Assembly (NCBI GenBank): GCA_021018995.1
Contig: CM037586.1
Location: 7,786,328-7,850,327 of the forward strand
From: Chloranthus sessilifolius
Lineage: Eukaryota > Streptophyta > Magnoliopsida > Chloranthales > Chloranthaceae
DNA: 64,000 bases
Direction: 5' to 3'
Shown here: in pieces, positions 2,321 through 45,563 of the stretch
Layout: each line of letters begins with the position of its first letter
Position numbering within the stretch: the stretch's first letter is position 1
Program-made: the position numbers and the translations under genes
Notes under the pieces: model-generated
Told to the model about the DNA's origin: nothing
Databases searched by the model: none
Seen by the model: only the letters and a program-made list of their open reading frames with translations

Positions 2321-2328
2321 GTGTTGTT

Positions 2329-4088: not shown

Positions 4089-4162
4089 CTAAATTTTATT
4101 TGACGGTCTTTCTGATTCTTTATTTCAAGCTTAAAAGTCAACAATTGAGTCTTACTTTGCAG

Positions 4163-4329
4163 GGAGGATGTGGTGTCACTGCCGGATGGTATATTTGCCG
4201 ATGTCTTATTTATATGGGAAGAGGTTTGTTGGTCCAATCACACCAACAATTTTATCATTGAGAAAGGAGCTCTACACTCTCCCCTACAACCAAGTAGATT
4301 GGAATCAAGCCCGCAATATGTGTGCAAAA
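4163..4329 (+). CDS. CAS1: Cyclase exon w1 (residues ~253-307)
   Basis: The acceptor is TTTGCAG and the donor is AAA|GTTCGT. The exon opens with the last two bases of a Gly codon and then reads [20 protein letters not shown], the block around His257. In triterpene (non-sterol) cyclases the corresponding motif is usually M-W/L-C-Y-C-R, so the His here points to sterol-type cyclisation. It ends with ...ARNMCAK, joining in phase 0 to EDLYYPHP of the next exon. Confidence 0.95.
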
Positions 4330-7300
4330 GTTCGTTAGATCATTTTTTCTTATCTTTTACTGGTATTTTATTTCTTGCATGTGGATACCTAGAACCATGA
4401 AACTTGATAACACTAAATTGATTTCATGATTAATTTATTCCTTGATTCTGCCTTTTGAGATCAATGACAACTTTACTTTTATGTGGTTCTCAAGTCATTT
4501 TCCGTGCATACTTGTATTATTGATGAATGCTTATTCTTTTGTAGGTTCGATTATTATGGTTGATGTAATGAGTTTGCTTTATGTAATGACTAATGAGTTT
4601 GCTTTATGTAATGAGTTCGCCAGCCTTTGTAATTAACTACTAGTTCTCAGTGTTCTTTAGGCACTTCTACTTTTGGGATTTTTGCCATGCCGACACTTGG
4701 TGGCACTTGTACACATGCCGACACTTGGACACTCCTCAACACATCACAATACTTTTAGATATGTATGAAATTATCACATAAAACCATCAAAATGTTCCTC
4801 ATTTTGACACGATGAAATGAACCGTTGGTTTATAATAAAAGATTGCGTTAAGTTTAGTTAACTTGTAAAGTAAGAATCTTCGTCCTCAAAACGATTTGTA
4901 TAATAGAGTATACTTTTAGTTAGATTCATCATAGGCATTATGTATATTTTCATTAAATATCTTAATTGACTCTCTAAAATATTCCTTCAATTTTTTTTCT
5001 ATATATGTTCTATTTTTTTAAATTTTATTTTCTTAAGGCCGTGCCGGTATTGGAATCTTTAGAAATTGGCGTGCGAAACATCTATAACATGTTGACACTT
5101 GGCACCAGTGCCACATGTCTCGGCACTGCTAGTTCTTTCTTTTCTAGAGGTAAGTTTCCTTTTACTGGTCTGTGCTAACCGGTAGGGGATGCAGGTGGCT
5201 GACCTTTGCTACTTTATTTTTTCAGACTTGAAATTAGGAAACTAGGTCTCCTTTATCTTACAGCTTCTAGTTCTTTTCTTTTTTTTTTCTATTATTATGT
5301 AGTTTAATGTTAAAGCAAGCTGAACTGCACTTAGAGAGTAAGTGATAATTCATGATAGTTAAGCACGTTAAGGATATTTTGAGGAATGATCCACTCACTG
5401 ATTGAGACCGGGAATGTACATGGTGTGGTGTTTTTGACAACACTCCTATATGGGAGTAGTGTATTCTTGTTATCCACACTATGGCATGTGTTTCATACGA
5501 CATTTCTTAGGAACCATTGTTTTTGTACTTGGTACACGATCGATCTCTATTCTTTTTACCTCGCGATGATCTAATCTTATAGGTCTCTTATGCCTCGTGT
5601 GCTAACCTTCCTTTGTCATGAGAAATGCTAAGGCTATTGATATTTTGCTGACAGTCTATAATGAAGTAGACTGATTGAAAATAGAATAATTTGGTAATAA
5701 TTAGTTGTAATAAGCTTGATGTTCCAATTGGTATGTGGATTGTCATAACCACAGTGGTATTTGGAAAAGTTATTTAATTTGTTCATTTGTTTGGTAGTTC
5801 CTTCATCTAAAAGAGAAGTTTACTGTTAGTATTCCTATGAGAATGTGATGTGGCTTCTGTAACTACTATTCTGTGTTGCTATTTTGATTCCATTTTCTTA
5901 TGTTTCATTTTTGCTATTTGTTCATTTTAAGACTGATTTTTTTTATTTTTTATTTTAAAAGAAGCAGAATGTCACTAATAGATATTTGTATGCATCCCTT
6001 TTGGAACAAATGTACTCTTGTGTTTTTTTTGTATCTTTCACAGTACCTTTTCCTGAACAAATATAAACATGTAAGGATTTGCTACACTCTTATTGCAGGA
6101 AGATCTGTACTACCCACATCCACTAGTACAAGACATCCTTTGGGTATCTCTTCACAAGATTGTTGAACCTATTTTAATGCATTGGCCAGCCAGCAAGTTG
6201 AGGGAAAAGTCTTTGAATCTCACAATGAAACATATACATTATGAAGATGAAAACACTCGTTACATTTGTATCGGGCCTGTAAACAAGGTAATCTTGAAAG
6301 TGTTTATTATATACATTACTAGTTAACACAAGTTGTGACCATTCTTTTTTGTCAAATGGGGTTGAAATGTTGATATACTAAAATTTGTTGATTGTGTTGG
6401 CACATAAAGAAATGTGTTTTCAATAAAGGTATTTAGTGTGTCACAGGTTGACAGCTTAAGGCATCAGAGCTTGAGTGGGCAACCAAGCTCATCGTGTGGC
6501 ATGAGAGGGCATGATTGAATTAGAGTTTGTAGGTGTTAGGGTTAGATGGCAAAGAAGGGAGAGGGTTATAAGACTTATCCCTCACACCCTTATTATACAA
6601 ACAGGATCCCATGCACGTTACAAACACTAGGCATTATATGCTATCAATGTAAACACCCAATTAATTTTAGAGACGCACCAACACTCCCTCTCACGTTGGC
6701 GCATCTATATCTATCATGATGCCCAACTTGGATACAAGATACGAAGTCTCGTCCTTCCTAGGAACTTGGTAAGACTATTAACAATTTGTTCCTGTGAGCT
6801 AGCTTGAGTTACAAGATTAACTTGACTCTATTTTATCATGGATGAAATGTCAGTCAACTTCAATATGCTTGGTCTGTTCGTGATAGATTGGATTTTCTGC
6901 TGTGTTTGGCAACTTCATTATCTCCAATGAGATTCATAGGGAACTTCACACTTATTTCCAAATCATATAGAATAAACCAAATCCGTATACCTTCACGAGC
7001 CCCTTGAAAGATGACTCTATATTGTATTTCAACATTGAATTTGCCACCACATACTGTATTTTGCTTCTCCAAGTGACCAAATTGCCTCCAACCACGGCAT
7101 GATATCCCGTGGTAGATCTCCTATCACTAGAAGTTAAAATTTATATGCGATGGATCAAGGGTTCTAGAGTTAGATTTGATGGAGGATAGAGGAAGAATAA
7201 GAAGAGGAAAGAGTGAGAGAAAGAAATTAGGTTATGGGATTTAATCTCATTCCCTTCCATTATTAATAGATATGCTTCATACAATATGATAAAGACACAT

Positions 7301-10300
7301 CTACTATTGCTAAGACACCCACTAACATTTAGTGACCTATACACACCAACTTAATATGAAATCTACATACATACCAACACTCCCTCAAGTTGGTTCATAG
7401 ATATCTATCATGCCCAACGTGGAGGTAATGTCATACAACCATTTTCCTCCAGCAGTCTTAGTAAGAATACGTGCCAACAGATCTTCTATGCTCACTTGAG
7501 GTATACAAAATTTTTGTGATTCAATTTTCTCTTTTATGAAGTGGCAGTCCACTTCAATATGCTTTGTTCTTTGGGCATACACAGGATTTTCTGCGACGTG
7601 GAGAGCAATCAGCAAGGACAAACCATAGCCACATACCTTCTCGCGCACCTTGTGACAGCACGATTCCCACCTTCTGCTTTAGAACTTGAAGCAGCATATT
7701 GTTTCTTACTTTTCCACGTGACTAGATTTTCCTAGAGAGAGTACATTATCCTATAGTGGACCTCCGACCACTAAGTGATCCAACCCAATCTGCATTCGTA
7801 AATACCTCTACGTCAAAGTGGCCACTGTTATTCAAAAGTAGTCCTCTACCTGGCTTCCTTTCAAGTACTTTATATCTGATACATAACATCCAAATGTATT
7901 GTTATGGGTGAATGCATATGTTGTCTAACTACACTGACTGCATAGGCAATATTTGGATGCGTCATTGTTAGACATATCATATCAACTTTTGTACCGATCG
8001 TTGATACATTCGAGGGTTTTTGAGAGAAGCAACCCCTTCCCTAGTAATCCAATGGTTCTGTTCTATAAGGGTAGCGGAAGGTCTACGCCCTAACATCCCA
8101 GTTTGTTTCAGTATATCTAGAGTTTCTTTTCGTTGGGATAGAGTTATCCCTTTCTTAGATCTTGCCACCTCAATACCCAGCAAATATTGAGGAGGTCCTA
8201 AATCTTTGATGTCAAACACTCTACGTAGATAATGTTTGTCTCATATTCTCCTCACTGTCATCTCCCGTCACAATAATATCATCAACATAGACAAGAACTG
8301 CAGTGGGATGAGACCCATTCTTGACAAAAAAATGTGTGATCATAGTGGCTTCGTCTATATCCAAATTTCATCACGCCGTCACTGAACTTTCTAAACCAAG
8401 CCCGAGGGGACTGCTTTAACCCATAAATAGCCTTCTTCAGCCTACAAACCTTGCCTTTCTTCCCCTCAAGTGTAATGCCAGGGGGAGGTGCCATGTAGAA
8501 CGTCTTCTGTTAAGTTACCATGTAAAAAAGCATTCTTGACATCTAGCTGATATAGCGAGCAATCTGTGTATGCAACCAGGGAGAAAGTATTCTGATAGTA
8601 TTTGACTTTGTAACCAGAGCAAAAGTCTTTTGGTAATCAATCCCTTGGGTTTGAGTAAACTCTCTTTCATGACTTTAAGTCATTCTATGGATCCATCTCA
8701 CCCTATAAACGCACTTGCACCCAACCAATTTCTTTCCTTTTGGAAGTTCCACAACCTCCCAATTATTATGGTATTTTAGAGCTTTCTTCTCTTGCACCAT
8801 CTCCTCTTTCCACTGTGGCTGGTTCAAAGCATCAGGAATGGTAACATAGTCTAGAGTAGATATAAGATACAAATGAGATGAGGAAAGAGCTTGATAAGAT
8901 ACAAATTTACCAAAGGGATGACGTATGCATGATCTAGGAGGTTTACGCTGAGCAATATGATGGTCCAAATCACTTTGTTGAAGGGGATCACAATTTTGTG
9001 GACTTGCTTCAGGACAGAGAGCCTTGTTAGTGGTCTGAGAGGACGTCTTCTCATTCTTCTTCTTGAAGCTTTCACCCCAAATAAAATACTTTTCTTTACC
9101 AAATCTGTCAAAGGCGATTCCTTTTCTGTAGTAACAACCTCACTTGGCATCCTTAGGATCCCTTAGCTTTCTTCCTCAACTTCATCTTTCTGCTGCCTGC
9201 TTGGCGCACTTAATATCTCTTGACCTTCCGCTTCAATTTCATCACTGGTTTCATTCAAGAGGTTCGACAATACATGTATGGTGGATATAGTGTTCTCTTT
9301 CCAACACTCGATCCCTAAAGAGGGCACTAGGGGGTAGCATAGTACAATGTAGGCTAAAAAAAGGTGACATCTATAGCAACCCTGACTTTCCCAGACATAG
9401 GATCATAACACTTACATCTCCTTTGAGTAGGAGGATAATCAATGACGACACATTTTGTGGCCCTTCGAGATAGCTTATCACGAAATGACTAAGAAACATG
9501 GAAAAAGCAAACCGAACCAAACACAATGGGTGGAACTAGAAATAGACGCCTCTGGGGAGATAACAATTATTGGAGACTCACCCTCAAGAATATGAGTAGA
9601 CATTCTATTAATGAGAAAGTTAGCAGTAATAATGGCATTCCCCCCACTCCATAGACGTTTAGGAACATGCATACCAATTAATAGAGCACGGGCTACTTCA
9701 AGTAAGTGCCTATTTTTTTCTCTTAGCCAATCCATTTTGTTACAGAGTGTCAAGACAAGTGGTTTTCCACTCAATTCCATGAATGCAAAGATAAGACCGA
9801 AGATGATGAGAGGAATACTCTCCACCATTATCATACCTCAAAACTTTCATAGGATCTTGGGATTGAGTTTGCACTAACTTGTGGAAGACAGGTTAAACAA
9901 AAGCAACTTCATCCTTGAATTTCAACAAGTTCGACACAATATTACGAGTACAATCATCAATGAATGACACAAAATATTGATAACTACAAAGAGCAACAAT
10001 GAGAGATGGTTCCCAGACATCCGAATTGGAAAGGAATATTACTTCTATTACCACTAGGAGGATATGAAGTTTTATGATGCTTGGTCATCTGGCACACATC
10101 ACAATGAAACTTGGAGACATTGACGAAGCTAAGTTGTTGAGAGAACAAGTACGCAGACGCTGTAGGGGAAGCTGACCAAGGCGAGTATGCCATAAGAAAA
10201 CATCCTCGGTGGACATGGCTGCAACAACAATAGCAACTGGTTTCTGGATGTGATGGTTCTTGAAGATATAATCCATTTTCCTCATGACCACGACCAAGCT

Positions 10301-12378
10301 CCACTCCTGTAGACAAGTTCTGAAATACACAATAAGAAGGGAAAAAGGTTACCCTACAATTGAGTTTTATAGTGAGACTACCAACAAAAACAAGGCTGAT
10401 TGACATTTTAGGAACATGTAGAGTGGACTCCACAGGGATATGACCAACTTTTGCAGTCCCCTTCCCAATAACGGGAACATGGGATCCATAAGCCACCAGA
10501 ACATTACATGGTGCCGTCATAGGGGATAGAGAGTGGAATAACGCTGCCATACCGGACATATGAACCGTTGCTATGTCAAAATCCTACGATTTACGATTTG
10601 AATCCTACGATTTAAGTTGAATCCCAAGCCGAACGATTCAATTTTGACATAAAATCGTTTTTGGGCATGAATCTTATGATCCAACTTGTGAATCTTACAA
10701 TTTGACTTGAATCGCAGGTGAATCGTATGATTCACAAACCCACTTACATGATTTAACGTTTCACAGTGCATAAAACATAAAGCTTAAGAATTTTTTTAAC
10801 TTTTTTGCTCCTTATAAATTTAAAAAAAACATCTTTATAATGTAGGAAACCTCTCTTATAATACTGTTACCGATCGTGTGGGGTTAAAAATTTGGGTTTC
10901 TTTCTCATCTTTTGGTATGGGATCAGAATTTAATTCCGTTTGTTGCAAATGACTGCTAAGATGAAATGGATATTAAATGCACATGAAGATTTCAATTAAA
11001 ATTTTGAGGATTTGTTTTTGCTTTTTAAGATTCATTTCAGGTAATCATTCATGAATTGATGATGTTCAATTAGACGTATTTAGCTTATATCTTTATACTA
11101 TTTATGAAAGAAGTATAATGTTATAAAATTTATTGTGGACGTACTTGAATGCATTTCAATTTTATAGATTTATTGGATTTTTTTTTCAGTGGTTTTTCTT
11201 ATTTTAAAAAATGATTGTAAATAGTACGATTTAAATATTTAGCGATTCGATTAAAAAATTCCAAAATGATTTTACGATCCATTCGATTTCTACAACATTG
11301 CTCCAAAATCAATAATCCAAGGAGAACAATGTGACATGGTCACATGAGAAGATCTAAATATACTTGTCTTAGTCAAGTCGGGCAAACCATTTTATTCACG
11401 GATCATCACAGACGCGATGCACATTATCCGTAAATCCAGCCCCACGTGAAGAACACCTTGCAGAATCATCTTTCAAAATCATCTTGACCACTCATTTATG
11501 AGACTTTTTCCAAACACTGCAATGCACAATGACAAATAGGCAAAAACTTGTTTTACACAACATATAAAGCCATAACCACAAAGAGACTTGAACATTGCTA
11601 GGAACAGTGCTGTCTAATCTGCAATATGTCGGCACACTCCGTCTCATGATATCAATTCCAACAGTTGCACTGCAAGGTCACCAATCAGTACCAACAACAC
11701 TGTTGGAGCAAGGTCACTCCTACACAAAAATTTCCGCTAAAATCAACAGAAATCCGTCAATACATAACGGGAACACAAAGAGACTTGAACATTGCTAGGA
11801 ACTGTGTTGGTTTAATCTGCAATATGTCGGCACACTCCGTCTCACGACATCAATTCCAACAGTTGCACTGCAAGGTCACCGATCAGTACCAACAACACTG
11901 TTGGAATCTGCCAGATACAAAAACTGAACCGCAAGGTCACTCCTACACAAAGATTTCCACTAAAATCAACAGAAATCTGTCAATACTTAACAGGAACACA
12001 CAAAATCTGTTTTAAATCATCACTAGTAGAGATACACATCATCTCCAACCAAATTTACTGATCAATCTGCAATACAGGTTCTCAAAGTCCCGTATTTTTG
12101 AGAATCAACCGGGATACAAGAGATTCATGGGATCTGAAAGAATACCCTTCAAACTTCAACAAAACAGGATTCCATCACACCTAGAAGACTCCCAGTAGTA
12201 TTCCAATCAAAACCCAAAAGTGGCTGACCCTACAAAGCTTTCGTGAACCTCTTTGAAACTCCAAGGGCCTAAAAGACTCTGAATGAGATCCCACACACGA
12301 ACCTCTTCGAAACTCACACAGACTCTTCAAATGAAGATGTCATAGAAGAAAAATACTCACCTTGGAATTTGATTCCTT

Positions 12379-12418
<40 letters not shown>

Positions 12419-20162: not shown

Positions 20163-20250
<88 letters not shown>

Positions 20251-35200: not shown

Positions 35201-36720
35201 ATAGTGTTCTGTTATCACTTACAATAACATTGATTGCCGCTTAGATATGAACATGTGATTAAAAGAACAAATACCTGTCACTTAAGATCTGAACAGGAGA
35301 GAGCCTGTGGGGATCCGAATCTTCGATACAACAGATCTTTAGATATGGTCCTACCATCAGACGGTCAAATTTTGATTCCATGTGGCACACATTCTGAAAA
35401 GTGATCTGAGATATGCCATAATCATGTTCATTTTTTGGGATGTGTGCCACATGGAATCAAAATCTGACCTTGTGAAGGTAGACCCATGATTTCAAGATCT
35501 ATTGTGTAGAAGATTGGGATGAAAAATGATCTTCATCGACTGATTCAAAGCAGTCGACAGTTTAAGCACGTGAAGCCCAGGTTGAGAAGGAAGAATCTTG
35601 GATTGGAAATAAATGTACCCTTTTTTTCATTTCTGAATTTGCACATATTCAAGTTGCTGGAAGTACCATTGTACAATCCTATCAAAAAAAAAAGTAGCAC
35701 TGTACAAACAAATATATCAGCCGAACTCATACAGACTTATGCAAATCTAATTGGAGAATTTATTTGCCTTTTTAAAGCTGTTGTTATAATTATTTAAATT
35801 GCTTCTGTATTATTCCTAAATGATCAGGTATTGCACATGCTGCTGCATTTTTATAGATTGATATTTTTCAGGAAAATGTAAATCAATTTTGTTATGGCAG
35901 TCTTGATATCAAAGCAATTCTTTCTTATTTCTACTAGCGTTCATGTCTGCGAAGTGTATTATTCTGGTATTTAATATTGGTGGTCTTCTTCAATTATTCA
36001 TTCTTTTTGTTTTGGTCAAATTATTCTATATTTAGTTTGACTATTGCCTTTTTTTATATTTCAGCTAATAAATCCTGCTGAAACCTTTGGGGACATTGTT
36101 ATTGATTATCCGTAAGATTTAAATACCCTAGTTTCTGTTTTTTTTTTTTGGGGTTCATAGATGTATTTGCATTGATTCTTATTGGACACTGACTAGAATG
36201 GTATTCTAGATATGTGGAGTGTACCTCAGCAGCAATTCAGGCATTGGCATCATTTAAGAAATCATATCCCGGACATAGGAAGGAAGATATCGAAAACTGT
36301 ATTACGAAAGCAGTAAATTTCATTGAAAAGATACAAGAACCTGACGGTTCATGGTTTGTGTTTCTTTTTACTATTTTGCAGGTCCCGCATAATATAGTTA
36401 CACTCTTAGGCTATGTTTGGATAGGGGGAAAGGAAAAGAAATGGGCGGAAAGGAAACTGAAGTCCGGCCATTTCTCGCATTTGTATAAAACTTAGGCTAT
36501 ATTTGGATAGGGAGAAAGGAAAAGAGATGGGCGGAAATGAAACTGAATTCCGGCCATTTCTCGCTCTTGGATAGAACTTAGATCATCGGAAACCAGATCC
36601 ACTTTCCGTGCCTGTGGAAATGAGCCCTGCCCGACTGACTCTCTCCCCCGCCCCCTAATATCTTGGGATTGATTCTACCAAACATCTCTCTCCCAATCTC
36701 GCCCTAATATATTGGGACCA

Positions 36721-36774
<54 letters not shown>

Positions 36775-39010
36775 GCACAAACACTCTCCTTCGATCTGTC
36801 TCTCTCTCCACTCCTTGGAGAAGATAATGTTTTTTGGGTTCGTGTATGTCATGTACACCAACGATTGTGCTCCCATTCTATTTTCCACATGTTATTACAC
36901 AATCCAAACACCAAAAAATGATTAATTCCTATTGATTCCAAAAAGGGTTGGAATCCATGGGATCCTTAAATCTATTTCCACCTTTTTCCTTGAAAACATC
37001 CAAACAGAGCCTTACTGGATCACTATTCTAGTGTGCTATGTGTGTGTGTGTATTTTTACTCACACACATATACTACCACAGCTCAAATTGCTATTTTTCT
37101 TCCCTTAAAAGACTGTTGAAATGTATGGTTTGTGCTTGCAATTAAATTATACATTTATATGAGGAATCTTTGGATAGGTATGGCTCTTGGGCAGTCTGCT
37201 TCACCTATGGCACATGGTTTGGAATTAAGGGGCTGGTGGCTGGTGGAAAAACCTACCAGAATTGCTTAAGCATTCGTAAAGCTTGTGATTTTCTTTTGTC
37301 GAAACAATTGGCTTCAGGGGGTTGGGGAGAGAGTTATCTTTCTTGCCAGGACAAGGTGAAGTTTTTCAATGGTTGACATCAAAGTTATATTTTATTTTAT
37401 TTGGTTTTCTTTCCTAATTTGTATGATTAACATTATAGACTGTTCCCTTTTCAATTTAGAATTAGATATTTAACTCTTTGTAGCTCTTTCTTCTTTTACA
37501 GCACAAAGATATTTTCATTTAGAAAAACAAAGCAGGAGTATTGCAACTTAAATCATGAGAAATTGGCTCTGAAATCACAACTAGATTGACACTCTTGGTT
37601 GATCACTCTAGAAACAACTGTTCTCTTATGAATTAACAAACCACTTCTATTTTTTTCTAGTCTTCTCATGGAACATCAGATTAGAGGCAGTATGAATTGT
37701 TGCTTGATTGTCACAAAACAGTTTTTGGATGAGAATATTCATTGATGGGTCTGGTCCTTCACTTTGATTATGAGTTGGAAAGCTGACCTATTACCAAACA
37801 CATTTCGATTTCGCTTCCAACATCCATGAACTCATTTACTCAATCCGAACCTATTTCCAGTTGAACTATTGATCTACACAAACCTCTTCACACCCATGTT
37901 CATAACCCAACTCGCCTAAACCTGTACCCATCCCACCCATTAATGACAGAACCCACCCTTACTACAACCAGATGTACTACATGTCCCGACTCTGACTCAG
38001 GTTCTCCCCGTCAGAGCCGGCCCTGGGCATAGGCCAAAGAGGCGGTCACCTAGGGCCCAAATTTTACTTAAACAATAGGGGCCCCGCTCCCTCCCCAAAG
38101 GTGTAACCCAGTTCAGTAGTTCAGGGCCCCATTTTAGGAACTCGCCTAGGGCCCCCCAAAATCTCAGAGCTGGCCCAGCCTCTGTCTTACGTGAAGAGAT
38201 CCGTGTTAATTTGCAACCTGATCAAATTTTGAAGGCGTCCGTAGAGTCATATGCACATCGAACATTGATGCCGGAACGAGAACAGTGTACTATGGATCTA
38301 ATCTAGAGTAGAGTTGCATTTTATGGAGCCACATTGATTTCAGAAACAAGAACAGTGTAGGAATTATACTCTCATACTGGGTCTAGCAAAAATGTTTTCT
38401 CAAACAGAACCTACGCACCTTTGAAATTCTACTCAAGGTCCAACATGCTGCATAAGGTTGAATTGCTAATTTTTGCATACCTTTTGGACATCACACTTGT
38501 TATGATGCACATGATAAAGAGATCATGGCTGCTGTGTTGCCATTTTGCGTATCTTATGGACATTACTCTGGTTATGATGTACACTATAAAGAGACTTCAT
38601 TGAGTATTCTCATACGGATCTCAATCATTGATCATTGCAACAGTACCTGTACTGTTGATTTTGTTATGTTCCCTGTCTATTATATATATATATATATATA
38701 TATACATGGGAATGCTAACCTCACCCTCATCATTATGAGGTTATCATCGTGCCCGGACAATAATGCCCTTATTAAAGAGCATTTTCATACAATTATAAGG
38801 GACATTTTAGTCAAATTAAATTAGAAAATAAATTAGGTGTTTCAATAAATGAGGACACCTCCTTTATTGCAACTACATGCACCTCATTTATTATTTAATT
38901 CAAATTTACTAAAATGACCCTTATAATTTTACGAAAAATGCCCTTTAATAAGGGTATTATTGTCTAGGGACGATGCTAACCTCACAATGAAAACGGTGAG
39001 GTTAGCATTC

Positions 39011-39080
<70 letters not shown>

Positions 39081-40059
39081 ATCTGAGCCATGTGAAATTA
39101 TTTTTTTCAAGATAATAAGAATATGGCTATTTAAGCTACCAGATAGGCATGAAAGAATTTAAAAGCACGAATGCTCTTTTCTCATGTTGTTCTGTACGAG
39201 TAACTTTTGTTGAAACTTGAAACAGGTGTATACAAATCTTGAGGGCAACCGACCACACGTAGTAAATACTGGATGGGCTATGTTGTCTCTCATCGATGCT
39301 AATCAGGTTTGTTTTAAATAAATTGCATTGCTTCTGTTGGTAACTTGGTATTTACTATTTGGCTAACGATAATGAAGTTTAGTGAGGGCCAAGTTTTCTA
39401 TTCTCCTATTGGTATTATATCTGATTCTTCTTATTATCACTCCTACTTTGTGCTTTTGGTGAGCTGGTAACAAGATTTTTGCTATTGGCTTGAAGGCACT
39501 GAACTAGCAATCATGTAATTCTTTAGGCACTCAACATAGCAATCATGTACACACATTCTTGCAAAATTCGGTATTTTTGTACGTTCTACGACTTATTTTA
39601 TTTTGCGCTTGATATATATAATTATATATATATATATATATATATATGGAAAATGGCCCCCTGGGACGTGGTTGTAGGGTTTGAACCCTACTACATGGTC
39701 CATTTGGGCTGCCATGTGGCGCCCAAATAAAAAATGACACCCGTTTCCCCTTGGGTTCACCCGTCCCCTTAGGGTTATAGAAAAAATGAAAAAAATGGAC
39801 TTTTTTATCCCTCAAATCATAGGTCAAATATTGGGGTTTGCCCAACAAACATGGTGTATTGAATTTTTTCCTACTTTGACTCAATATTCAATGACGAAAA
39901 TTTATCCTTTTTTAAAAGTTATTTTTTAGATGGTATGTGATTGACCTTGGACCAGTTGTCATGGCACCTGATCGTTGGATTGGATGCCACATGGTATCCC
40001 ACTCGCCACGTTGTAGGGTTCAACCCTACAACCTCGTCCTAGGGAACCGGCTTCCTATA

Positions 40060-40119
<60 letters not shown>

Positions 40120-41481
40120 GACCTTGCACTCCTTCCCCAGCGATCTTGACTGGGGGAGGGGCTTAAATGTTGGCATGTGGCCCTATAAAACATGGTTTTG
40201 GCAGCGACATGGAGCATGGGCCATGCTATAGATCATAAAAAAACACACCAAAAAAAAAAACTGCACCATGTGTTAGAGAGCCTAAAAGCGCCAAAAAATG
40301 AAAGTAAAATGACACTTTTAGGGCATTTAATCATATGGTAAAGAGCATCTTATTTATCATTATTTTAATGTAATTCGTAGAATTTCCCCTTGCTCAACAT
40401 GACACCAAACCCATGCTTTATGGTGCCATGTAGACCTCATTGCATTGTTACCTAGGTACTTCTACTTTTAAGATTTTCACCGTGCCAACACTCGGTGGCA
40501 TTTGGACACTCCTCACACAGAACGATACTTCTAGACATGTATGAATAGATCGCATAATACCATCAAAATATTCCTCGTTTTGACACGATAAAATGAATCG
40601 TCATTTTTTAATATAATGAAAAGTTTAGTAACTTATAAAATAAAAACTTGGGTCCTTGAAAACGATATGTATAATATAGAATACATTTAGTTAGGTTCCT
40701 AACATACATTATGCATTTTTTCATTACATATCTCAATTGGCTGTCTAAGATTTCCCTTCAATTTTTTTATTTATACGTTCTATTTATTTTTTATTTTATT
40801 TTCCTTAAGGTCGTGCCGCCGTATTGGAATTTTTTGAGATTCCAAACATTTATGACACCGTGACACTTGGCACCCGTGCGACGTGTCTAGGTAGCACTGC
40901 ATCATTGCCTAGACCACAAAGGGGCACAAGAATCTCTCACAAGAAGATAAATGTACAACTCTATTCTTTAGTGATGTGTGCTTCATCTCGTACAAGCAGA
41001 TTGACTCTTTTGGCAAATGAGCGATTATACCTTTATTTGGTATTTCTCACAATTTTGCACCCAATTTGTGCACACAATCCCAGCCATTCAAGTTTAAGTG
41101 GGAGTCGATCCATGTCTTTGATTCAATATGCAGGTTGTGACATGCTATGTGCATCAGTCACCTATTTTGTGTAGCAGGGAAATGTTATCAGTATTATAAT
41201 CAGAGCATCATAGGGCACACGATATGTACCATATTGAGTAGAAAATAATATCTATTGATGATAAGTATCATTTTCTAACCTATCATCTGATGCAGTATAA
41301 TGTATCGTACGATACTCTGCGTATGATACATGTGATTTTAAGAAAATTTTAGTTTTAATTTTTTTTTTTTAAACTGTACATTTCTTCTTATTTACCCCCA
41401 ATCCTAAACCCCCCGATTTCATCTCAGTAAAATGAAATGAAAAGAAAAGAGCGAACGAAGGGAAGAGAACAAAGAAGGAAG

Positions 41482-41518
<37 letters not shown>

Positions 41519-44500
41519 TTTTATTTCATTTTATTATATTTTTGGGAGGGGGGAGAGGTTACAAACTTACAATGTCAAGAGGTGTATGGATATATAAATA
41601 TACTGGTACAACTACAGAATATCTTTTGATAATAGAAATTAACTTTTTCTTTTAATAACATAGGATATCCCAGGAAGGGTTGATCCCTACGGATGCATGC
41701 AATATCCTATAAACCATGTACTTCGGGTATGCCCGGGGGGATTTGAACTCAAGACCATGGAGAGCAAACCCACGTAGAAATCGGAACTTTAAAAACACAA
41801 TATACAAATATATAGTACAAGCATATATTATATACTTACACTACACCGGTACAACTATTAGGCTTTTTTTTTAATAATGGAAAAATTCATTAACTTTATG
41901 TGACTATGGATTTTTTGTTTACTATTAATGAATTAATCTAATGAATGTCTTGTTTTATTCAATTTATTTGATCTAAATTCTAATTTCCAACGTTGCATAT
42001 GATGGAAAGGATATCTTTAATACTTAATAATTCTTGGAAATGATCATAGGCTGTTATATTTTACTTTTTAATTTTTAAATTTTTTGTATATTTTTTTTTC
42101 TATTGTATCCTGTTTATTTATAAAAATATAAGTGGTGAGAGAGGCCACTGCTTGGCACAATGGTTAAAGGCTTGGGCTGTGAGGTTCCAGAGAGTAGCCA
42201 TTTGTGTGTAAAAAGCTTAAGGTTAGGTCTATATCCTGTCCACCCCTCCTAGTGCCCTGTATGTATGGGATCCACTCTGCATAATGGGCTTTTTTTTTAA
42301 GTGTATCTTACCCTACACGATACGTTACATAGTGACAAATTTCTCCGGAATTCACTAAAACAGGGATCAGACAAAACTTCTGGTGATTTTTCTGAATCGC
42401 CGAAATTTCATTAATTTTGGTGAAATTTTGCCAAAATAAATGGTTTTTCTTTTAATTTCAATCATTTTTAAATAATAAATATTAAAATAATTGATATGTA
42501 CTTACCCGAAACGTTTTTGAATTTTTCCCAAAATTTATCCGAAATGACCCCCAACTGAGATATTGCGAAAACAAAATTTGTCACTATGGTTAAAGGAGCA
42601 TGGTTACCAGGATTTGACAACCTTGGTTATCGAGATTTGGCTTACCCCTACACACCAGTACCAATACATACTAGTAACAATACAAAACATTACAGAAACG
42701 TCCTTGAAAGGGCATACTAATATGCGCTCGAAACTTGTTTACTACTTTTGAAAAATGATTTCCTTATGTTTGGAACATGTTTCCTACTATATAACTTATT
42801 ATGGGATAATAAATTATGTGTGTGTGTGTGTGTGTGTGTTTAAGTTAACACTTGTTACTTATATATATAATATGTTCTAGACCTCTAGTACTTGCTTCAC
42901 ACCAGAACATATCTCTCTTTCTCACCCTTGTATAAAGCATGAAAGAAAAGAAACATGGAGTTTTTAATGTGAGGTTATGGATCTTTTAGATTGGGTCTTC
43001 AAGTTGAGGATGGATGTAAGTATTTTGCTCATAAAGTTTATCATGTGGAGCAGGATGTGAGTATTTTGGTTTTTTGCACTTCTTTAATGGTAACTTTGTT
43101 ATGTTTTATTTAAATGAGACTTGAGTGCATATTTGTCATCTCTATTTATTCACTGACTTCGTAATGTTCTTAGTATGAATGAAACTATAAATTATGAACT
43201 TCATGTGCATACAATTGTCCGAAATTATATATAGAAGATGACTACGTAGGACGTGGTCGTAGGGTTCGAACCCTACGGCGTGGTTCATTTGGGCTGCCAC
43301 GTGGCACCCAAATCCTAAAATGACACCCGCCCCCCTAGAGTATTAGAAAAAAAAATTCCGAACTTTTTAATCCTTCAAATCTTAAGTCAAATATTTTGAT
43401 TCGCCCAACAAACTTGGTAAATTGAATTTTTTTCCAAATTTGACCCAACATTCAACGATGGAAAATACTCTATTTGTTTAGAGATGGTACATGATCAACC
43501 TTGGGCAAGTTGCAGCAGCACCCGATCCTTGGGTTGGTTGCCACATCGCGCCCAACAAGCAACATTGTAGCGTTCAACCCTACTGACCACGTCCTAGGGA
43601 ACCAGCTTCCATATATATATATATATATATGGTTTTCAAGATTGCTATGTATGATAGGTACGTTTCTATTTATATAAAAAACATATGCAGAAAATGCACA
43701 ATTAGAGGAACTATGCATATTTTTGTTTATAATTAAGAAACATGGATTATATACTGAATTTACCTTTCTTCCCCCTATCGTCTTAACTTTCGAAACATAT
43801 TCTTTGGAGAAGGCTGAGAGAGATCCAACCCCTTTGCATCGTGCCTCAAGGGTGTTGATTAACTCGCAAATGGAGAATGGCGATTTCCCGCAACAGGTAT
43901 CTCTACCGCATTTAGCATGTTAGGATGGTTACTACAATACCGTAGATTGGTAGTTGTTGTTTGGTATATGCGATCCTTTGATACGATGGATATTCAAATT
44001 CGTCAATCGTTGAACATAATGATTATATGTTGAAGTTTTATTTAAAAAACATAATATTTTGAGGGGAGGAAATGAAGTAATGCCAATAATCGAGAAAAAG
44101 TTAGCACAATATTTCAATTTACTAATTAATCTAAAATAATTGTTAATAATATCAGTAAGGGTAGCTCTATTTGCACCCTCCAAATATTTAAGGGCACCAA
44201 CGCTGATAATCATTGATTGCTTTGAATAAGATGATGGATATCGTTTTTCGTCCCGTTCTTCCACTAAGTGGGGCCATGGGCGTACCATCAAATGGTTAGA
44301 TTTCCATGTGGCACACATCCCAAAAAGCAATTCAAGAACCCATTTGATCAAACAGTTATTCTTGGATCACTTTTTGGGATGTGTGCCACATCGAATCAAA
44401 ATCTGACGGTTTGATGGTACGCCCATGGTCATTGTCTGGAAGATTGGAACAAAAAATGATCTCTATTGTCTGATTCAAAGCGGTCAATGGTTTTCAACAT

Positions 44501-45563
44501 TGGTGCCCTTAGAGATTTGGTAGGTGCAAATAGAGCTACCCTATATAGCAGTGTTGTGCATGGTGTCTCTAGTTTTCGCACTCATTGCATCAAACACAAA
44601 ACATGTTATGCATTAATAGATATTTTGAAACGTGCATCAAACACAAAACATGTTACACATTAATAGAGATTTTGAAATGTTTCTTGAGTGCCTTTATTGG
44701 CACCTATGGAATCTTTTAGGGCACCTATTGGCCACGTGCGAGCCAAAAAGTGCATCCTTTGTGGATGCACTTCAAGATTCATTATAGGCTCCGTTCTAGA
44801 AAACCATCTTCTTCCATCTCCTCCTTCGGCAGATATTATAGCTCCGTCCACCTAAAAAACTACTCTTCTTCTGCTCCGGTGAATATTACAGCATCGGCGA
44901 ACCTACTTCCTCTTCTTCTTCGGCTTCAGCGAATATTTCAGCTCCGTCCACCTAAAAAACTCTTCTTCTCCGGCGAATATTACAGCTCCGGGGAACCTCC
45001 TCCTTTTCCTTCTACTCCTTCGTCGCCGGCATCTTCATCGACGTTGTTGCCAGCATCATGCAACTGAGAAGAAGGAGAGATGTTTAAAAAATATTTAAAT
45101 GGGTGCCTTTCAAGATTGTACCTTCATAAGTAAAGCACCCACAACACACACTTATGTTGGTGTTTTTCAAGAGTTGGTAGGTGGTGTTTCTTATTTCCTC
45201 TTAAAACTGAGGCCTACGTTTTGATGATTTCGACAACTAAAATCTTCCAAATAATTTTTTTTTTATTTTGGCGCCTGCCGGAAAAATATAAAGATGACTA
45301 ATGCTGAAGAAGCTATGGAACAAATGAAAAGCAAACCTTCAAAATTCTAAATATAAGCTTTAAAAGTTGCTAATATTATTCTACCTTTGTTCTTAATCAT
45401 AGATGATTTTATTTTGGTTGTTTCTGTATTATTAAAACAGGAGATTATGGGAGTCTTCAACAAGAACTGTATGATTAGTTATTCTGCATACAGAAACATT
45501 TTTCCGATATGGGCTCTCGGAGAATATCGCTCTCGAGTGCTGTACGCCTCTGTGAAACATTGA
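4163..45563 (+). CDS. CAS1: Cycloartenol synthase-like oxidosqualene cyclase (13 exons, 5' part outside window)
   Basis: The enzyme cyclises 2,3-oxidosqualene to cycloartenol, the first committed step of plant sterol synthesis, on the ER membrane. Exons: 4163-4329, 6099-6287, 15524-15637, 16253-16375, 16457-16579, 17093-17188, 18696-18752, 36065-36111, 36210-36353, 37178-37355, 39226-39306, 43813-43896, 45441-45563. They encode about 508 residues without a stop, and every intron is GT-AG with matching phase. Using Arabidopsis CAS1 numbering by collinearity, MWCHCR places His257, GYNG places Tyr410, and [11 protein letters not shown] places His477, Ile481 and the catalytic acid Asp483. All five are the cycloartenol-type residues, whereas lupeol and beta-amyrin synthases differ at the MWCHCR and GYNG positions. 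QW motifs are QNKDGGF, QEPDGSW, QLASGGW and QMENGDF. The first exon opens in phase 1 in the middle of a Gly codon, so about 250 N-terminal residues must lie upstream. Cucurbitadienol synthase is a close alternative that cannot be excluded without the N-terminus. Confidence 0.93.
4330..6098 (+). other. Intron w1 (1.77 kb)
   Basis: Contains hAT-like MITE copy 2 (4648-5128). The remaining sequence, 4330-4639 and 5137-6098, is AT-rich and shows no gene, RNA or further mobile element that I can recognise. Confidence 0.85.
4648..5128 (+). mobile_element. hAT-like MITE, copy 2
   Basis: A 481 bp element beginning CAGTGTTCTTTAGGCAC and ending GTCTCGGCACTG. It is flanked by a perfect 8 bp duplication, CTAGTTCT (4640-4647 and 5129-5136). 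This is the cleanest copy for defining the family ends. It carries a small internal duplication of the CATGCCGACACTTGG segment near the left end. Confidence 0.9.
6099..6287 (+). CDS. CAS1: Cyclase exon w2 (residues ~308-370)
   Basis: A 63-codon exon, acceptor TATTGCAG and donor AAG|GTAATC, both ends phase 0. It encodes the block from [15 protein letters not shown] to [17 protein letters not shown], which is strongly conserved across plant oxidosqualene cyclases. No substitutions break the conserved core. Confidence 0.95.
7385..10559 (-). pseudogene. Inner copia polyprotein remnant
   Basis: Read right to left: protease / gag-pre-integrase region (10559-9984, with [15 protein letters not shown]), integrase (9834-9478, with [13 protein letters not shown] and ANFLINRM), the linker, then reverse transcriptase. 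In the latter, [16 protein letters not shown] lies at about 8760, [17 protein letters not shown] at about 8420 and [19 protein letters not shown] at about 8190. RNase H is at 7648-7385, with [15 protein letters not shown]. The domain order is that of Ty1/copia. The frame changes several times and stops interrupt every domain, so no functional protein can be made. Confidence 0.85.
10573..11294. mobile_element. hAT-like non-autonomous element inside the inner copia
   Basis: It splits the copia protease/gag frame: WIIDFGA is encoded right of the insertion and VHMSGMA left of it. The putative 8 bp duplication is CCGTTGCT (10565-10572) versus ACATTGCT (11295-11302), six of eight matching. The ends are ATGTCAAAATC and (reverse complement) TGTAGAAATC. 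Subterminal copies of GAATC(C/G)TACGATTT-like words lie at 10575-10735 and again near 11220-11290, as is usual for hAT elements. The body is AT-rich and non-coding. Confidence 0.68.
11583..12005. repeat. Tandem duplication of about 180-195 bp within the inner copia leader
   Basis: The segment containing TGCAATATGTCGGCACACTC, CAACAGTTGCACTGCAAGG and CACTGTTGGA occurs twice, at about 11583-11770 and 11775-12005, with a 30 bp extra stretch in the second copy. It lies between the recognisable gag end and the 5' LTR of the inner copia. The remainder of 11303-12510 holds only the (AT)n tract at 12381-12413. Confidence 0.75.
12381..12413. repeat. (AT)n microsatellite
   Basis: An uninterrupted AT run of about 33 bases in the leader of the inner copia. 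Confidence 0.95.
14468..14934 (+). mobile_element. hAT-like MITE, copy 3, inside copia integrase
   Basis: A 467 bp copy with ends CAATGATACCTAGGCAC and GTGTCTAGGTAACATTG. The flanking duplication is ATAAAAAC (14460-14467) and ATAGAAAC (14935-14942), seven of eight. The copia integrase frame is readable on both sides, KSVRCVS to the right and the D-S-L-I-D-K block to the left. The MITE therefore inserted into the copia element and is younger than it. Confidence 0.88.
15524..15637 (+). CDS. CAS1: Cyclase exon w3 (residues ~371-408)
   Basis: A 38-codon exon, acceptor ACATGTAG and donor CAG|GTTCAG, phase 0 at both ends. It begins [11 protein letters not shown] and ends AEDGMKMQ, the hallmark block that precedes the Tyr410 region. 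Confidence 0.95.
15694..16080. mobile_element. Foldback MITE, family A copy 1
   Basis: The long imperfect inverted arms read GGTGCCTCTATTCGCGCC on the left and the complement of GGAACCTCTATTCACGCC on the right. They continue through TTGAATCAGA...GATCATTTTTCATTCCAATCTTCC and CATGGTCTCAAGATC. The central words GTGGCACA...TCCCAAAAA are shared by all copies (16605, 35129, 44159 and about 49330). It lies in the 615 bp intron between exons w3 and w4 and can fold into one hairpin. A MULE-type origin is likely but no clean 9 bp duplication was seen. Confidence 0.75.
16253..16375 (+). CDS. CAS1: Cyclase exon w4 (residues ~409-449, Tyr410)
   Basis: A 41-codon exon, acceptor AATTGCAG and donor CAG|GTTTGA. 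It starts [17 protein letters not shown]. The Tyr in second position corresponds to Tyr410 of Arabidopsis CAS1, where lanosterol synthases of fungi carry Thr and pentacyclic triterpene synthases have a different motif. The exon ends ...[11 protein letters not shown]. Confidence 0.95.
16457..16579 (+). CDS. CAS1: Cyclase exon w5 with DCTAE catalytic motif (residues ~450-490)
   Basis: A 41-codon exon following an intron of only 81 nt (16376-16456). The acceptor is the less common GTGAAG and the donor AAA|GTAATT. It encodes [20 protein letters not shown] followed by TAEGLK. The DCTAE Asp protonates the epoxide to start cyclisation. His477 and Ile481 immediately before it are the residues that favour cycloartenol over lanosterol. 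Confidence 0.96.
16605..17032. mobile_element. Foldback MITE, family A copy 2
   Basis: It occupies nearly the whole 513 bp intron between exons w5 and w6, starting 26 bp after the w5 donor and ending 61 bp before the w6 exon. The left arm begins GGTACCTCTATTCTCCCC and the right arm ends with the complement of GGGTACCTATTCGCACC. The arms pair over roughly 150 bp, including CTGAAAGC, GAAATCAGACGATG and ATCTTGAGACCATGA. The body is related to the copy at 15694. Confidence 0.75.
17093..17188 (+). CDS. CAS1: Cyclase exon w6
   Basis: A 32-codon exon, acceptor TTGTGCAG and donor CAG|GTAACA. It reads [20 protein letters not shown] and then [12 protein letters not shown]. This is the variable segment of the family; it is one residue shorter than in Arabidopsis CAS1 and still in frame. 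The closing Gln starts a QW motif completed in the next exon. Confidence 0.93.
17232..17657. mobile_element. Foldback MITE, family B copy 2
   Basis: The left end GGACCCGACTCTCCTGACCG and the right end (reverse complement GGATAATGGCTCCTGACTG) form inverted arms with TTTAAACACC inward. They match the copy at 3655-4088. It lies in the 1.5 kb intron between exons w6 and w7. Confidence 0.7.
17697..18560 (-). mobile_element. 5'-truncated LINE (L1-type) fragment, minus strand
   Basis: The minus-strand frames encode the C-terminal part of LINE ORF2: [15 protein letters not shown]...[19 protein letters not shown] at about 18530-18430, then the zf-RVT-like region to about 18060. The sequence ends on the minus strand with TTTTACTGATTAAAAAATAA, the usual L1-type 3' end with a short A-rich tail. 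Frames are shifted and interrupted. Only the last ~0.9 kb of a LINE is present, typical of 5' truncation during target-primed insertion. Confidence 0.75.
18696..18752 (+). CDS. CAS1: Cyclase exon w7 (19 codons)
   Basis: A small exon, acceptor TCCTGCAG and donor GAG|GTAACC, encoding [19 protein letters not shown]. The preceding Gln plus NKDGGF forms a QW-type repeat. It precedes the 17.3 kb intron. Confidence 0.94.
18770..19044. mobile_element. Probable small hAT-like element with GATACG/CGTATC subterminal words
   Basis: Dense repeats of GATACG, GGTATCG and CCGATAC run through the segment. The right end reads GAGTTTGATACCTTG, resembling the CAAGG-type hAT terminus seen at 52547. The left end (CATGAGG...CTCGGC) matches only partly and no 8 bp duplication was found, so the boundaries are uncertain. 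Confidence 0.4.
20164..20248. repeat. (AT)n microsatellite, about 85 bp
   Basis: An uninterrupted AT run at the left junction between the copia leader and the gypsy LTR. The gap 20249-20367 holds a short unclassified segment with GGGTAATGATCACC. Confidence 0.95.
21634..24830 (-). pseudogene. hAT transposase, degenerate
   Basis: Read right to left on the minus strand. A BED-type zinc finger comes first (about 24810-24620: [20 protein letters not shown]), with an in-frame TGA at 24779-24781. A linker rich in charged residues follows (24463-24269). The DUF659-type catalytic-core block is at 24094-23480, with [20 protein letters not shown] and the [13 protein letters not shown] segment. The hAT C-terminal dimerisation domain is at 22717-22514, with [16 protein letters not shown] and [16 protein letters not shown] basic and Asp-rich tail lies at 22313-22068 and a Tyr/Gly/Pro-rich tail at 21933-21634. 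Stops and frame changes separate the blocks; some could be introns, but the BED stop argues that the copy is dead. Confidence 0.82.
24850..25425. repeat. AT-rich tandem repeat array inside the hAT element
   Basis: Degenerate units of about 45-60 bp built from TTTATTTGATATTATTCTAA and TTTTTAAAATATTAGATTAT are repeated roughly ten times with length variation. No coding content. Confidence 0.75.
25430..25715. repeat. Inverted repeats TGTCACATGTGGCATGGGG
   Basis: Several direct and inverted copies of the word TGTCACATGTGGCATGGGG and its complement alternate with ATTGATGTGTCA, giving strong hairpin potential. They are followed by a short (TA)n tract at about 25665-25686. The array is non-coding and internal to the hAT element, upstream of its transposase. 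Confidence 0.7.
25745..25875. repeat. About 20 bp tandem repeats
   Basis: Six near copies of GGGTAGATCTTGAAATTTAA, in the hAT element upstream of the transposase frames. Confidence 0.8.
26426..26437 (+). other. Gypsy primer-binding site
   Basis: TGGTATCAAAGC differs by one base from the common Met-initiator tRNA complement TGGTATCAGAGC. It lies a few bases after the end of the 5' LTR. Confidence 0.75.
26733..30942 (+). pseudogene. Ty3/gypsy gag-pol remnant
   Basis: Gag is at 26733-27137 ([19 protein letters not shown]). A zinc knuckle, [12 protein letters not shown] and then a stop, lies at about 27515-27555. The protease is at 27803-28120, where the active-site Asp-Ser is followed by Arg instead of Gly. 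Reverse transcriptase spans 28225-28905, with [15 protein letters not shown] and the catalytic YFDD at about 28824-28835. After a frame change near 28905, RNase H continues to about 29600 ([15 protein letters not shown]). The integrase zinc-binding HHCC block is at about 29800-29960 and the core at about 30005-30470. The C-terminal [20 protein letters not shown] segment lies at about 30719-30780. There are at least four frame changes, plus in-frame stops (for example at 29341 and 30238). No chromodomain is seen. Confidence 0.88.
31870..32230 (+). mobile_element. LINE (L1-type) 3' end, 5'-truncated
   Basis: The frame [20 protein letters not shown] at about 31927-31986, followed by [12 protein letters not shown], matches the C-terminal end of plant L1 ORF2. 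The 3' end TTAATATAATCTTTATTATTGATAAAAAAAAT at 32180-32212 is the standard short-tail signature. It sits in the copia shell between the gag and RT remnants. The flanks 31740-31870 and 32213-32400 are AT-rich simple sequence with repeated AACTATTAAAAAATC and TTTAATACGCGAAAA words. Confidence 0.65.
33001..34711 (-). mobile_element. GC-rich LTR-like segment, possibly minus-strand
   Basis: The segment runs from TGTTTGGTAAAC to GTTGCCAAACA, so it has TG/CA ends and short inverted termini. On the minus strand TGGTATCAGAGTGATGG at about 33195-33211 resembles a primer-binding site, which would put an LTR at about 33212-34711 and only about 200 bp of internal sequence. No polyprotein is visible and no flanking duplication was found. 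Its base composition is much more GC-rich than its surroundings. Confidence 0.35.
33905..34345. repeat. About 70 bp GC-rich tandem repeat with GTGCC/GGCAC palindromes
   Basis: Units begin GTCGCGTGTCCTCTTGACAC or a variant, at about 34071, 34141 and 34212, with shorter and more divergent units on both sides. Each unit is itself built of about 23 bp modules of the form CGTGCC-TCTTGGCACC-CAT. GTGCC paired with GGCAC makes a small hairpin in each module. Confidence 0.75.
34712..35128. repeat. 41 bp tandem duplication in otherwise empty intron sequence
   Basis: 34923-34963 and 34964-35004 repeat GACAACCAATTACTGTTATA...CCAAATAGAT. A short (TC)n tract lies at about 34761-34782. Nothing else recognised in this stretch. 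Confidence 0.75.
35129..35577. mobile_element. Foldback MITE, family A copy 3
   Basis: The outer arms CATGTGCTTAAAC...TGACTGCTTTGAATCAGACG and the matching right end (complement CACGTGCTTAAAC...CGACTGCTTTGAATCAG) pair. The core carries GTGGCACACATTCTGAAAA and TTTTGGGATGTGTGCCACAT. A stretch of about 130 bp at 35180-35300 interrupts the left arm. Confidence 0.7.
36065..36111 (+). CDS. CAS1: Cyclase exon w8 (47 bp)
   Basis: The smallest exon, acceptor TTTCAG and donor CC|GTAAGA, reading [15 protein letters not shown] plus two bases of a Pro codon completed by the next exon. The sequence is fully conserved with the family, which confirms correct joining across the 17.3 kb intron. Confidence 0.95.
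36210..36353 (+). CDS. CAS1: Cyclase exon w9
   Basis: Follows a 98 nt intron. The acceptor is ATTCTAG and the donor ATG|GTTTGT. It completes the Pro codon, then reads [20 protein letters not shown] and ends IQEPDGS plus the first two bases of Trp. QEPDGSW is a QW motif, a structural repeat of the alpha-barrel in all cyclases of this superfamily. Confidence 0.95.
36409..37011. mobile_element. Tourist-like (PIF/Harbinger) MITE
   Basis: The ends are GGCTATGTTTGGATAGG and the complement of GGCTCTGTTTGGATG, flanked by the 3 bp duplication TTA (36406-36408 and 37012-37014) typical of PIF/Harbinger. The first ~80 bp are tandemly duplicated (36409 and 36493). A long (TC)n tract lies at 36722-36772. 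It fills most of the 824 bp intron between exons w9 and w10. Confidence 0.8.
36722..36772. repeat. (TC)n microsatellite
   Basis: An uninterrupted TC run of about 50 bases inside the Tourist-like MITE. Confidence 0.95.
37178..37355 (+). CDS. CAS1: Cyclase exon w10
   Basis: The acceptor is TGGATAG and the donor AAG|GTGAAG. The first base completes the Trp codon of the QW motif. It then reads [20 protein letters not shown] and ends [19 protein letters not shown], holding another QW motif. All are highly conserved positions. Confidence 0.95.
38708..39012. mobile_element. Foldback MITE, family C, with perfect 18 bp termini
   Basis: GGGAATGCTAACCTCACC at the left and its exact reverse complement at the right. 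The inverted arms extend inward through AATAATGCCCTTATTAAAG and CCTTTAATAAGGGTATTATTG. It is flanked on both sides by (TA)n tracts (38682-38704 and 39014-39075), so a TA target duplication is possible but not demonstrable. Confidence 0.8.
39014..39075. repeat. (TA)n microsatellite
   Basis: About 62 bases of TA directly at the right end of the foldback element. Confidence 0.95.
39226..39306 (+). CDS. CAS1: Cyclase exon w11 (27 codons)
   Basis: The acceptor is GAAACAG and the donor CAG|GTTTGT, phase 0 at both ends. It reads [20 protein letters not shown] followed by SLIDANQ. It aligns without gaps to the family block around HVVNT. Confidence 0.94.
39648..40055. mobile_element. MITE family D copy 1, flanked by TA/TG microsatellites
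   Basis: The left arm includes GGGACGTGG and GTAGGGTTTGAACCCTAC. The right arm includes GTAGGGTTCAACCCTAC and GTCCTAGGGAACCGGCTTCC. A second copy at 43233 shares the whole body (for example GCCCAACAAAC and GCTGCCA(T/C)GTGGC). The two copies have the same orientation. Confidence 0.7.
40062..40114. repeat. (TG)n(GA)n compound microsatellite
   Basis: About 20 bases of TG followed by about 33 bases of GA, immediately right of the family D element. Confidence 0.95.
40443..40899 (+). mobile_element. hAT-like MITE, copy 4
   Basis: A 457 bp copy with ends CATTGTTACCTAGGTAC and GTGTCTAGGTAGCACTG. The flanking duplication is CCTCATTG (40435-40442) and CATCATTG (40900-40907), seven of eight. Same orientation as the other three copies. 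Confidence 0.88.
42150..42298 (+). mobile_element. tRNA-derived SINE, Au-like
   Basis: A Pol III A-box-like TGGCACAATGGTTAAAGGC near the start, a middle part ending GGGATCCACTCTGCATAATG, then GGGC and a T run (42290-42298). This layout, with a GGGATC-CAnTG-GCA-GGGC-Tn end, is that of the Au SINE family found across angiosperms. The B box is degenerate. Confidence 0.6.
42328..42588. mobile_element. Small hAT-like MITE, 261 bp
   Basis: Perfect 15 bp inverted termini, CATAGTGACAAATTT and its complement. The interior has repeated AAATTT(C/T)GG-like words. The flanking 8 bp do not match, so the target duplication is eroded. Confidence 0.68.
43233..43610. mobile_element. MITE family D copy 2
   Basis: Same body as 39648-40055. 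The left part has ACGTGGTCGTAGGGTTC and the right end has GTCCTAGGGAACCAGCTTCC, followed by a (TA)n tract (43611-43630). Confidence 0.7.
43813..43896 (+). CDS. CAS1: Cyclase exon w12 (28 codons)
   Basis: The acceptor is the less usual GGAGAAG and the donor CAG|GTATCT. It encodes [20 protein letters not shown] followed by [15 protein letters not shown] is the last QW motif. Preserved frame and length support function. Confidence 0.94.
43897..45440 (+). other. Intron w12 (1.54 kb)
   Basis: Contains foldback MITE A copy 4 (44159-44541), a 50 bp tandem duplication of GCATCAAACACAAAACATG (about 44586-44683) and a degenerate tandem repeat of about 105 bp (44830-45000) with CTCCGTCCACCTAAAAAACT and GAATATTACAGC. 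The rest shows nothing recognisable. Confidence 0.75.
44159..44541. mobile_element. Foldback MITE, family A copy 4
   Basis: The best-preserved family A copy: GGGTAGCTCTATTTGCACC at the left and its exact reverse complement at the right. The inverted arms continue through TTGATTGCTTTGAAT/TCTGATTCAAAGCGGTCAA, CATGGGCGTACCATCAAA and TGTGGCACACATCCCAAAAA. The two halves face each other over nearly the whole 383 bp. Confidence 0.82.
45441..45563 (+). CDS. CAS1: Cyclase last exon w13 with stop
   Basis: The acceptor is TAAAACAG. It encodes [20 protein letters not shown], then [20 protein letters not shown] and TGA at 45561-45563. The block up to LGEYR is strongly conserved and the final ten residues are family-variable. 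The sequence after the stop (45564-45700) is T-rich, as in plant 3' untranslated regions; no confident poly(A) signal was picked. Confidence 0.95.

Follow-up and report, generated by a model that had tools for sequence, protein, structure and literature searches.

A gene that runs through the 64,000-bp stretch of DNA analysed here (‘the window’; C3:7786328-7850327 in a 2.17-Gb assembly of 32 contigs) is very probably an ordinary housekeeping cycloartenol synthase (CAS) gene, its exon set complete and its introns inflated by transposable elements (TEs). The whole gene comprises 18 exons with 2,280 nt of coding sequence, encodes 759 amino acids and occupies 87,222 bp, from C3:7744669 to C3:7831890. 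Its frame is single, open and correctly phased, 759 codons followed by a stop, with zero internal stops or frameshifts in the spliced alignment.

The gene was located by tblastn with an Arabidopsis CAS1 query, which recovered the exons of an initial annotation made from the window, and was modelled by spliced alignment with free GT/GC-AG introns, which placed exons 6–18 at 4163..45542; the frame was then extended to the stop, at 45563. Flanks of 80 kb upstream and 20 kb downstream of the window were taken. The exons are listed below, exons 1–5 in contig coordinates and exons 6–18 in window positions, all from the spliced alignment and the last also from the extension to the stop.

Exon 1: C3:7744669-7744866, left of window
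Exon 2: C3:7777002-7777187, left of window
Exon 3: C3:7778236-7778325, left of window
Exon 4: C3:7778496-7778690, left of window
Exon 5: C3:7779136-7779220, left of window
Exon 6: 4163..4329, plus strand, H257 region
Exon 7: 6099..6287, plus strand
Exon 8: 15524..15637, plus strand
Exon 9: 16253..16375, plus strand, Y410
Exon 10: 16457..16579, plus strand, H477, I481 and DCTAE
Exon 11: 17093..17188, plus strand
Exon 12: 18696..18752, plus strand
Exon 13: 36065..36111, plus strand
Exon 14: 36210..36353, plus strand
Exon 15: 37178..37355, plus strand
Exon 16: 39226..39306, plus strand
Exon 17: 43813..43896, plus strand
Exon 18: 45441..45563, plus strand, TGA stop

The 13 exons that the initial annotation had proposed at 4163-45563 are real: spliced alignment and stop extension gave identical limits, with 1,526 nt of coding sequence in 41,401 bp (about 1.5 kb in 41.4 kb had been claimed), 9,236 and 17,312 bp for introns put at 9.2 and 17.3 kb, and, as had been read, no disabling change. 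It had also held that the full gene is larger, with 5′ exons outside the window, and that the locus would be a truncated pseudogene were there none upstream. Five N-terminal exons lie at C3:7744669-7779220, 7–42 kb left of the window, which rules out the truncated pseudogene and brings the gene to 87.2 kb, about twice the figure first given. The perfect GT-AG borders described at the outset hold for the 12 introns between window exons but not gene-wide, as 16/17 introns are GT-AG and upstream intron 3 is GC-AG. Introns 1–17 measure 32,135, 1,048, 170, 445, 11,269, 1,769, 9,236, 615, 81, 513, 1,507, 17,312, 98, 824, 1,870, 4,506 and 1,544 bp; they make up 97% of the 87-kb locus, and introns 1, 5, 7, 12 and 16 together hold 88% of the 84,942 intronic bases.

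The encoded protein scored 786.7 bits against TIGR01787 (squalene/oxidosqualene cyclases; cut-off 322.7), matched PF13243 and PF13249 above cut-off, and scored 1038.5 bits against PDB chain 8j5z_A, listed as a terpene cyclase/mutase and presumably of plant origin, and 682.6 bits against lanosterol synthase 1w6j, which we take to be the human enzyme. On the TIGR01787 and 8j5z_A scores, chance can be excluded as the source of the cyclase match. With a profile score over the cut-off and a DCTAE motif at 483–487, the protein bears both marks of the oxidosqualene cyclase family. Y118, H257, Y410, H477, I481, D483 and Y532 (CAS1 numbering) all match the AtCAS1 state, and thus include the five CAS-type residues noted originally (H257, Y410, H477, I481 and D483); Y410, H477 and I481 are those expected of a cycloartenol synthase, as is Y118. 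Arabidopsis CAS1 and Nicotiana tabacum CAS1 (EC 5.4.99.8) have the same diagnostic residues and a similar length (759 amino acids both here and in AtCAS1). In the plant lanosterol synthase (LAS) signature N477 goes with V481, whereas the window gene has H477/I481. In the available parts of the papers concerned, CAS1 is reported to depend strictly on His477 and Ile481, and plant LAS1 to carry V481 (PMC4208727); Tyr410, His477 and Ile481 are given as key residues of CAS (PMC7060231).

A genome search with the full protein returned 63 matches (60/68 candidates scored), and exons 6–7 formed a separate query (13/13 candidates scored). Four other loci, assembled from search matches and fetched pieces, are relevant.

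C5a copy: C5:111611544-111651094, exons 1, 2, 3, 4 and 7
C5b copy: C5:109951320-110010916, part of exon 6, exon 7, part of exon 9, exons 10, 11, 13, 14 and 15
C11 copy: C11:115686870-115722362, minus strand, exons 8–16 and 18, some partial
C6 relative: C6:62723377-62761199, 17/18 exons matched, exon 16 not recovered in fetched pieces

The C6 relative has N477/V481, and DCTSE in place of DCTAE, over matches spanning ~38 kb, those to exons 1 and 2 being only ~0.2 kb apart; because of N477/V481 it is classed as LAS-type, a LAS1-like paralogue of the same family that differs from the window gene (H477/I481) in these residues. With the exon 6–7 query, exon 6 was found whole at just two loci, C3 and this C6 gene, so that C3 is the single complete CAS-type gene found in the 2.17-Gb assembly; neither that query (13/13 scored) nor the full-protein search (60/68 scored) recovered a further complete CAS-type locus.

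The remaining three copies are known from pieces, in which 13/18 (C5a), 10/18 (C5b) and 8/18 (C11) exons lacked a match. Alignment gaps reveal the loss of exons 5–6 from C5a; in C5b they remove exon 8 entirely, exon 6 at its 5′ end and exon 9 at its start. In C11, exon 10 is frameshifted and exons 1–7 and 17 have no match. For further small exons (C5b exon 12, C11 exon 17) a loss is less sure, the genome search having missed small exons that are present in these copies (C5b exon 13, for example). A second functional CAS on C5, joining C5:111.61-111.65 M to C5:109.95-110.01 M, was considered and rejected: both pieces contain exon 7 and each is without some exons, and they are therefore two truncated copies rather than halves of one gene. 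The GC donor of intron 3 (C3:7778326-7778495), which we counted against a working gene at C3, is also present in the C5a copy; C6 has GT there. Decayed LAS-like cyclase fragments also occur at C5:10075871-10091058 and C5:16019828-16025187, two of the C5 LAS-like fragments (L049 and L051) having S477/V481 and in-frame stops.

Relative to C3, dN/dS was 0.71 for C5a (286 codons), 0.53 for C5b (309 codons) and 0.12 for C11 (340 codons); between C3 and C6, dN was 0.155 and dS saturated (703 codons). Changes were polarised with C6 as outgroup and counted as synonymous/nonsynonymous. Against C5a, the C3 lineage had 3/1 and C5a 0/9; against C5b, C3 had 2/2 and C5b 6/13. Summed, C3 had 5/3 and the two C5 copies 6/22 (Fisher p=0.040), although these counts are small and 63 exon 7 codons enter them twice. 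The contrast with C11 was weak (C3 18/8, C11 14/10). This pattern is consistent with a constrained C3 and with relaxed decay of the C5 copies.

It is very unlikely that the gene is a recent or silent pseudogene, its exons intact and transcription through its TE-filled introns gone, with another CAS, lacking in the assembly or overlooked there, being the active one. The TE pieces in the 32-kb and 17-kb introns and the truncation of the three other copies lend that account some weight, and two published statements were counted against a working gene: expression in Chloranthus falls once intron length exceeds 40 kb (PMC8626473, in part), and an intron of more than 20 kb with a T-DNA in Arabidopsis is suggested possibly to exceed the machinery (PMC5364540, in part), intron 1 here being 32 kb. 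Yet none of the 759 codons carries a disabling change, no other complete CAS-type exon 6 was found (13/13 candidates scored), and the nonsynonymous share of changes is lower in the C3 lineage than in the C5 copies; moreover, sterol synthesis in Nicotiana benthamiana depends strictly on CAS1 (available part of PMC4208727), so that one working copy is to be expected. The 87-kb transcript of a working housekeeping gene is probably both made and spliced.

That the locus encodes instead a CAS-like cyclase with some other product (parkeol, cucurbitadienol or a specialised triterpene, for example) is highly improbable. Identity to the AtCAS1 sequence is 77% (587/758 aligned residues), and a product is not proven by residues alone. 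Against this, H477, I481, Y410 and Y118 are as in CAS, position 118 being L in cucurbitadienol synthase, and the assembly yielded no further complete CAS-type gene that could supply sterols (60/68 and 13/13 candidates scored). Moreover, NtCAS1 is likewise 78% identical to AtCAS1 (PMC4208727, in part). Cycloartenol is the probable product of the housekeeping enzyme.

The long introns are rich in TE remains. Pfam matches were obtained for 6/9 intron frames tested, with RVT_2, rve, RVT_1 and DUF659 distributed across introns 1, 5 and 12. Intron 1 contains Copia rve and RVT_2 frames, an RVT_1 frame read as Gypsy, and a repeat pair of 523 bp, regarded as LTRs, 7.8 kb apart and 92.7% alike; intron 5 contains a minus-strand RVT_1 frame read as LINE-type. 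The long introns within the window are as follows.

Intron 7: 6288..15523, 9,236 bp, Copia-like fragments at ~7.6-10.6 kb, minus strand
Intron 12: 18753..36064, 17,312 bp, DUF659 frame at 23483-24094, minus strand, and Ty3/Gypsy-like pieces at ~26.4-31 kb, plus strand, with RVT_1
Intron 16: 39307..43812, 4,506 bp

The DUF659 frame of intron 12 is one we take to be hAT-type. The Copia label in intron 7 derives from 66–68% inverted similarity to the intron 1 Copia (-20341..-18997 with 7627-8944, and -21292..-20870 with 9572-9998), frame 8678-9139 of this intron giving no Pfam match. Dispersal was tested on one 10-kb segment each of introns 1 and 12. The intron 1 query aligned with intron 1 of C5a, 94% alike, as two collinear blocks (query 1-3468 and 3452-10000), C5a having ~1.3 kb extra, and partially matched elements on other contigs (28/20,468 candidates scored); the intron 12 query was dispersed (32/17,627 candidates scored), one of its matches, at 94%, lying between C5b exons 11 and 13. 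In the parts tested, the long introns thus contain TEs found elsewhere in the genome and, since C5a and C5b share intron 1 and intron 12 sequence, these parts of the expansion predate the C3/C5 duplications. The growth could not be dated by a 1.69-kb stretch of intron 1 missing from C5a: its junction shows only short runs of shared bases, without a clear target-site duplication, which leaves C3 insertion and C5a deletion indistinguishable, and a 0.3-kb difference in intron 14 was set aside on the same ground.

Several further repeats were seen in and around the gene. One of ~460 bp occurs in introns 5, 6, 7 and 16 (2332-2797, 4649-5123, 14477-14936 and 40446-40899), always in one orientation, its copies 76–83% alike, and introns 8 and 10 have ~340 bp in common at 76% (15694-16030 and 16605-16941). 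Downstream of the gene lies a Copia element (54045-61170; RVT_2) whose 470-bp ends, 98.7% alike, form the top long repeat pair by similarity. Upstream, at C3 ~7728950-7738350, are minus-strand frames, one of which was tested and has a Cauli_VI domain; the region is pararetrovirus-like.

An assembly artefact, in which mis-scaffolding or collapsed repeats spread the exons of a compact gene, is barely credible, for although the large introns are highly repetitive, there are zero N bases in the window and ten 10-kb flanking pieces, C5a has exons 1–4 in the same order with an exon 1–exon 2 distance of ~36.3 kb and 10 kb of collinear intron 1 at 94%, and extended intron sequence flanking the exons is 92–98% alike between C3 and the C5 copies.

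As a housekeeping gene with TE-inflated introns, the C3 locus would be the plant's working cycloartenol synthase, turning 2,3-oxidosqualene into the committed sterol precursor. Repeated TE insertion would have stretched its introns to 84.9 kb in total, 88% of it in five introns, with purifying selection preserving exons and splice signals, while its segmental copies, on C5 and C11, would have decayed. Arabidopsis requires IBM2 and EDM2 for introns with heterochromatic T-DNA (PMC5364540, in part). By analogy, one might guess that such factors matter to the CAS gene; that sterol supply through a single complete CAS gene is hostage to IBM2/EDM2-type processing of heterochromatic introns (those of 32 and 17 kb), with possible rate control, is rather unlikely.

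The size of the gene was compared with those of two other families. For chaperonins (PF00118; 69 matches, 87/146 candidates scored), matches were grouped by hand with at least three in profile order per locus; 49 matches fell into 13 groups of varying profile coverage and 20 were set aside. These groups span 54.5, 54.2, 53.6, 52.5, 41.0, 34.6, 27.8, 26.4, 16.6, 12.7, 3.9, 3.7 and 3.1 kb, upwards of 25 kb in 8/13 (26–54 kb). For MCM (224-position domain; 49/49 candidates scored), 29/33 matches formed seven groups with domain spans of 11.5, 9.3, 4.2, 2.4, 1.1, 1.0 and 1.0 kb, below 2.5 kb in 4/7. Long genes are therefore common in this genome, though not universal; as MCM-domain loci are mostly compact, expansion is uneven, with the CAS gene, which at 87 kb exceeds every chaperonin and MCM span, in the upper tail.

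The view that plant cyclase genes are usually shorter is borne out by potato, where five CAS1 entries span 4.4–17.4 kb by table coordinates (available part of PMC10936075), the gene described here being ~5 times the largest, and no CAS gene of this size was met in the portions available of the literature on cycloartenol synthase and introns (including PMC12293385 and PMC10936075). The initial annotation's ‘extreme case’ of intron expansion survives as a heavily expanded, intact, CAS-type gene; ‘extreme’, however, needs context, other multi-exon genes here spanning tens of kb, and is unsupported as worded, since long-intron genes are described by the hundreds or thousands in Chloranthus and grapevine. 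In Chloranthus spicatus, 876/2,184 orthologs exceed 20 kb, whereas rice has 2 of that length and Arabidopsis 0, LTR elements being the main contributor (PMC8626473, in part). The likeness to these and to magnoliid long-intron genes lies in conserved coding length, LTR-inflated introns and many genes above 20 kb, although the accessible part of that study gives whole-genome statistics and we treat one locus and two control families. Grapevine has 2,697 introns of 3–100 kb, TE-rich and biased to introns 1 and 2 (PMC3058033, in part); here too the introns are TE-filled and intron 1 is the largest, but the grapevine introns were defined by ESTs and those of the CAS gene by genomic sequence alone. 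Long introns of gymnosperms are treated in PMC9364684.

The anatomy of the CAS locus is striking but of a known kind, and the system itself is not new in kind. An essential gene here stayed intact despite intron growth, which makes a clean case, and the dead sister copies elsewhere in the genome act as an internal control. Genes of this sort may be split or overlooked by default annotation, so that ‘missing’ sterol genes of long-intron plants merit re-examination. The chaperonin matches set aside include a full-length, intronless Cpn60 frame at C1:31763845-31765329, the other Cpn60/TCP-1 genes spanning tens of kb; it may be a retrocopy, organelle-like or foreign sequence.
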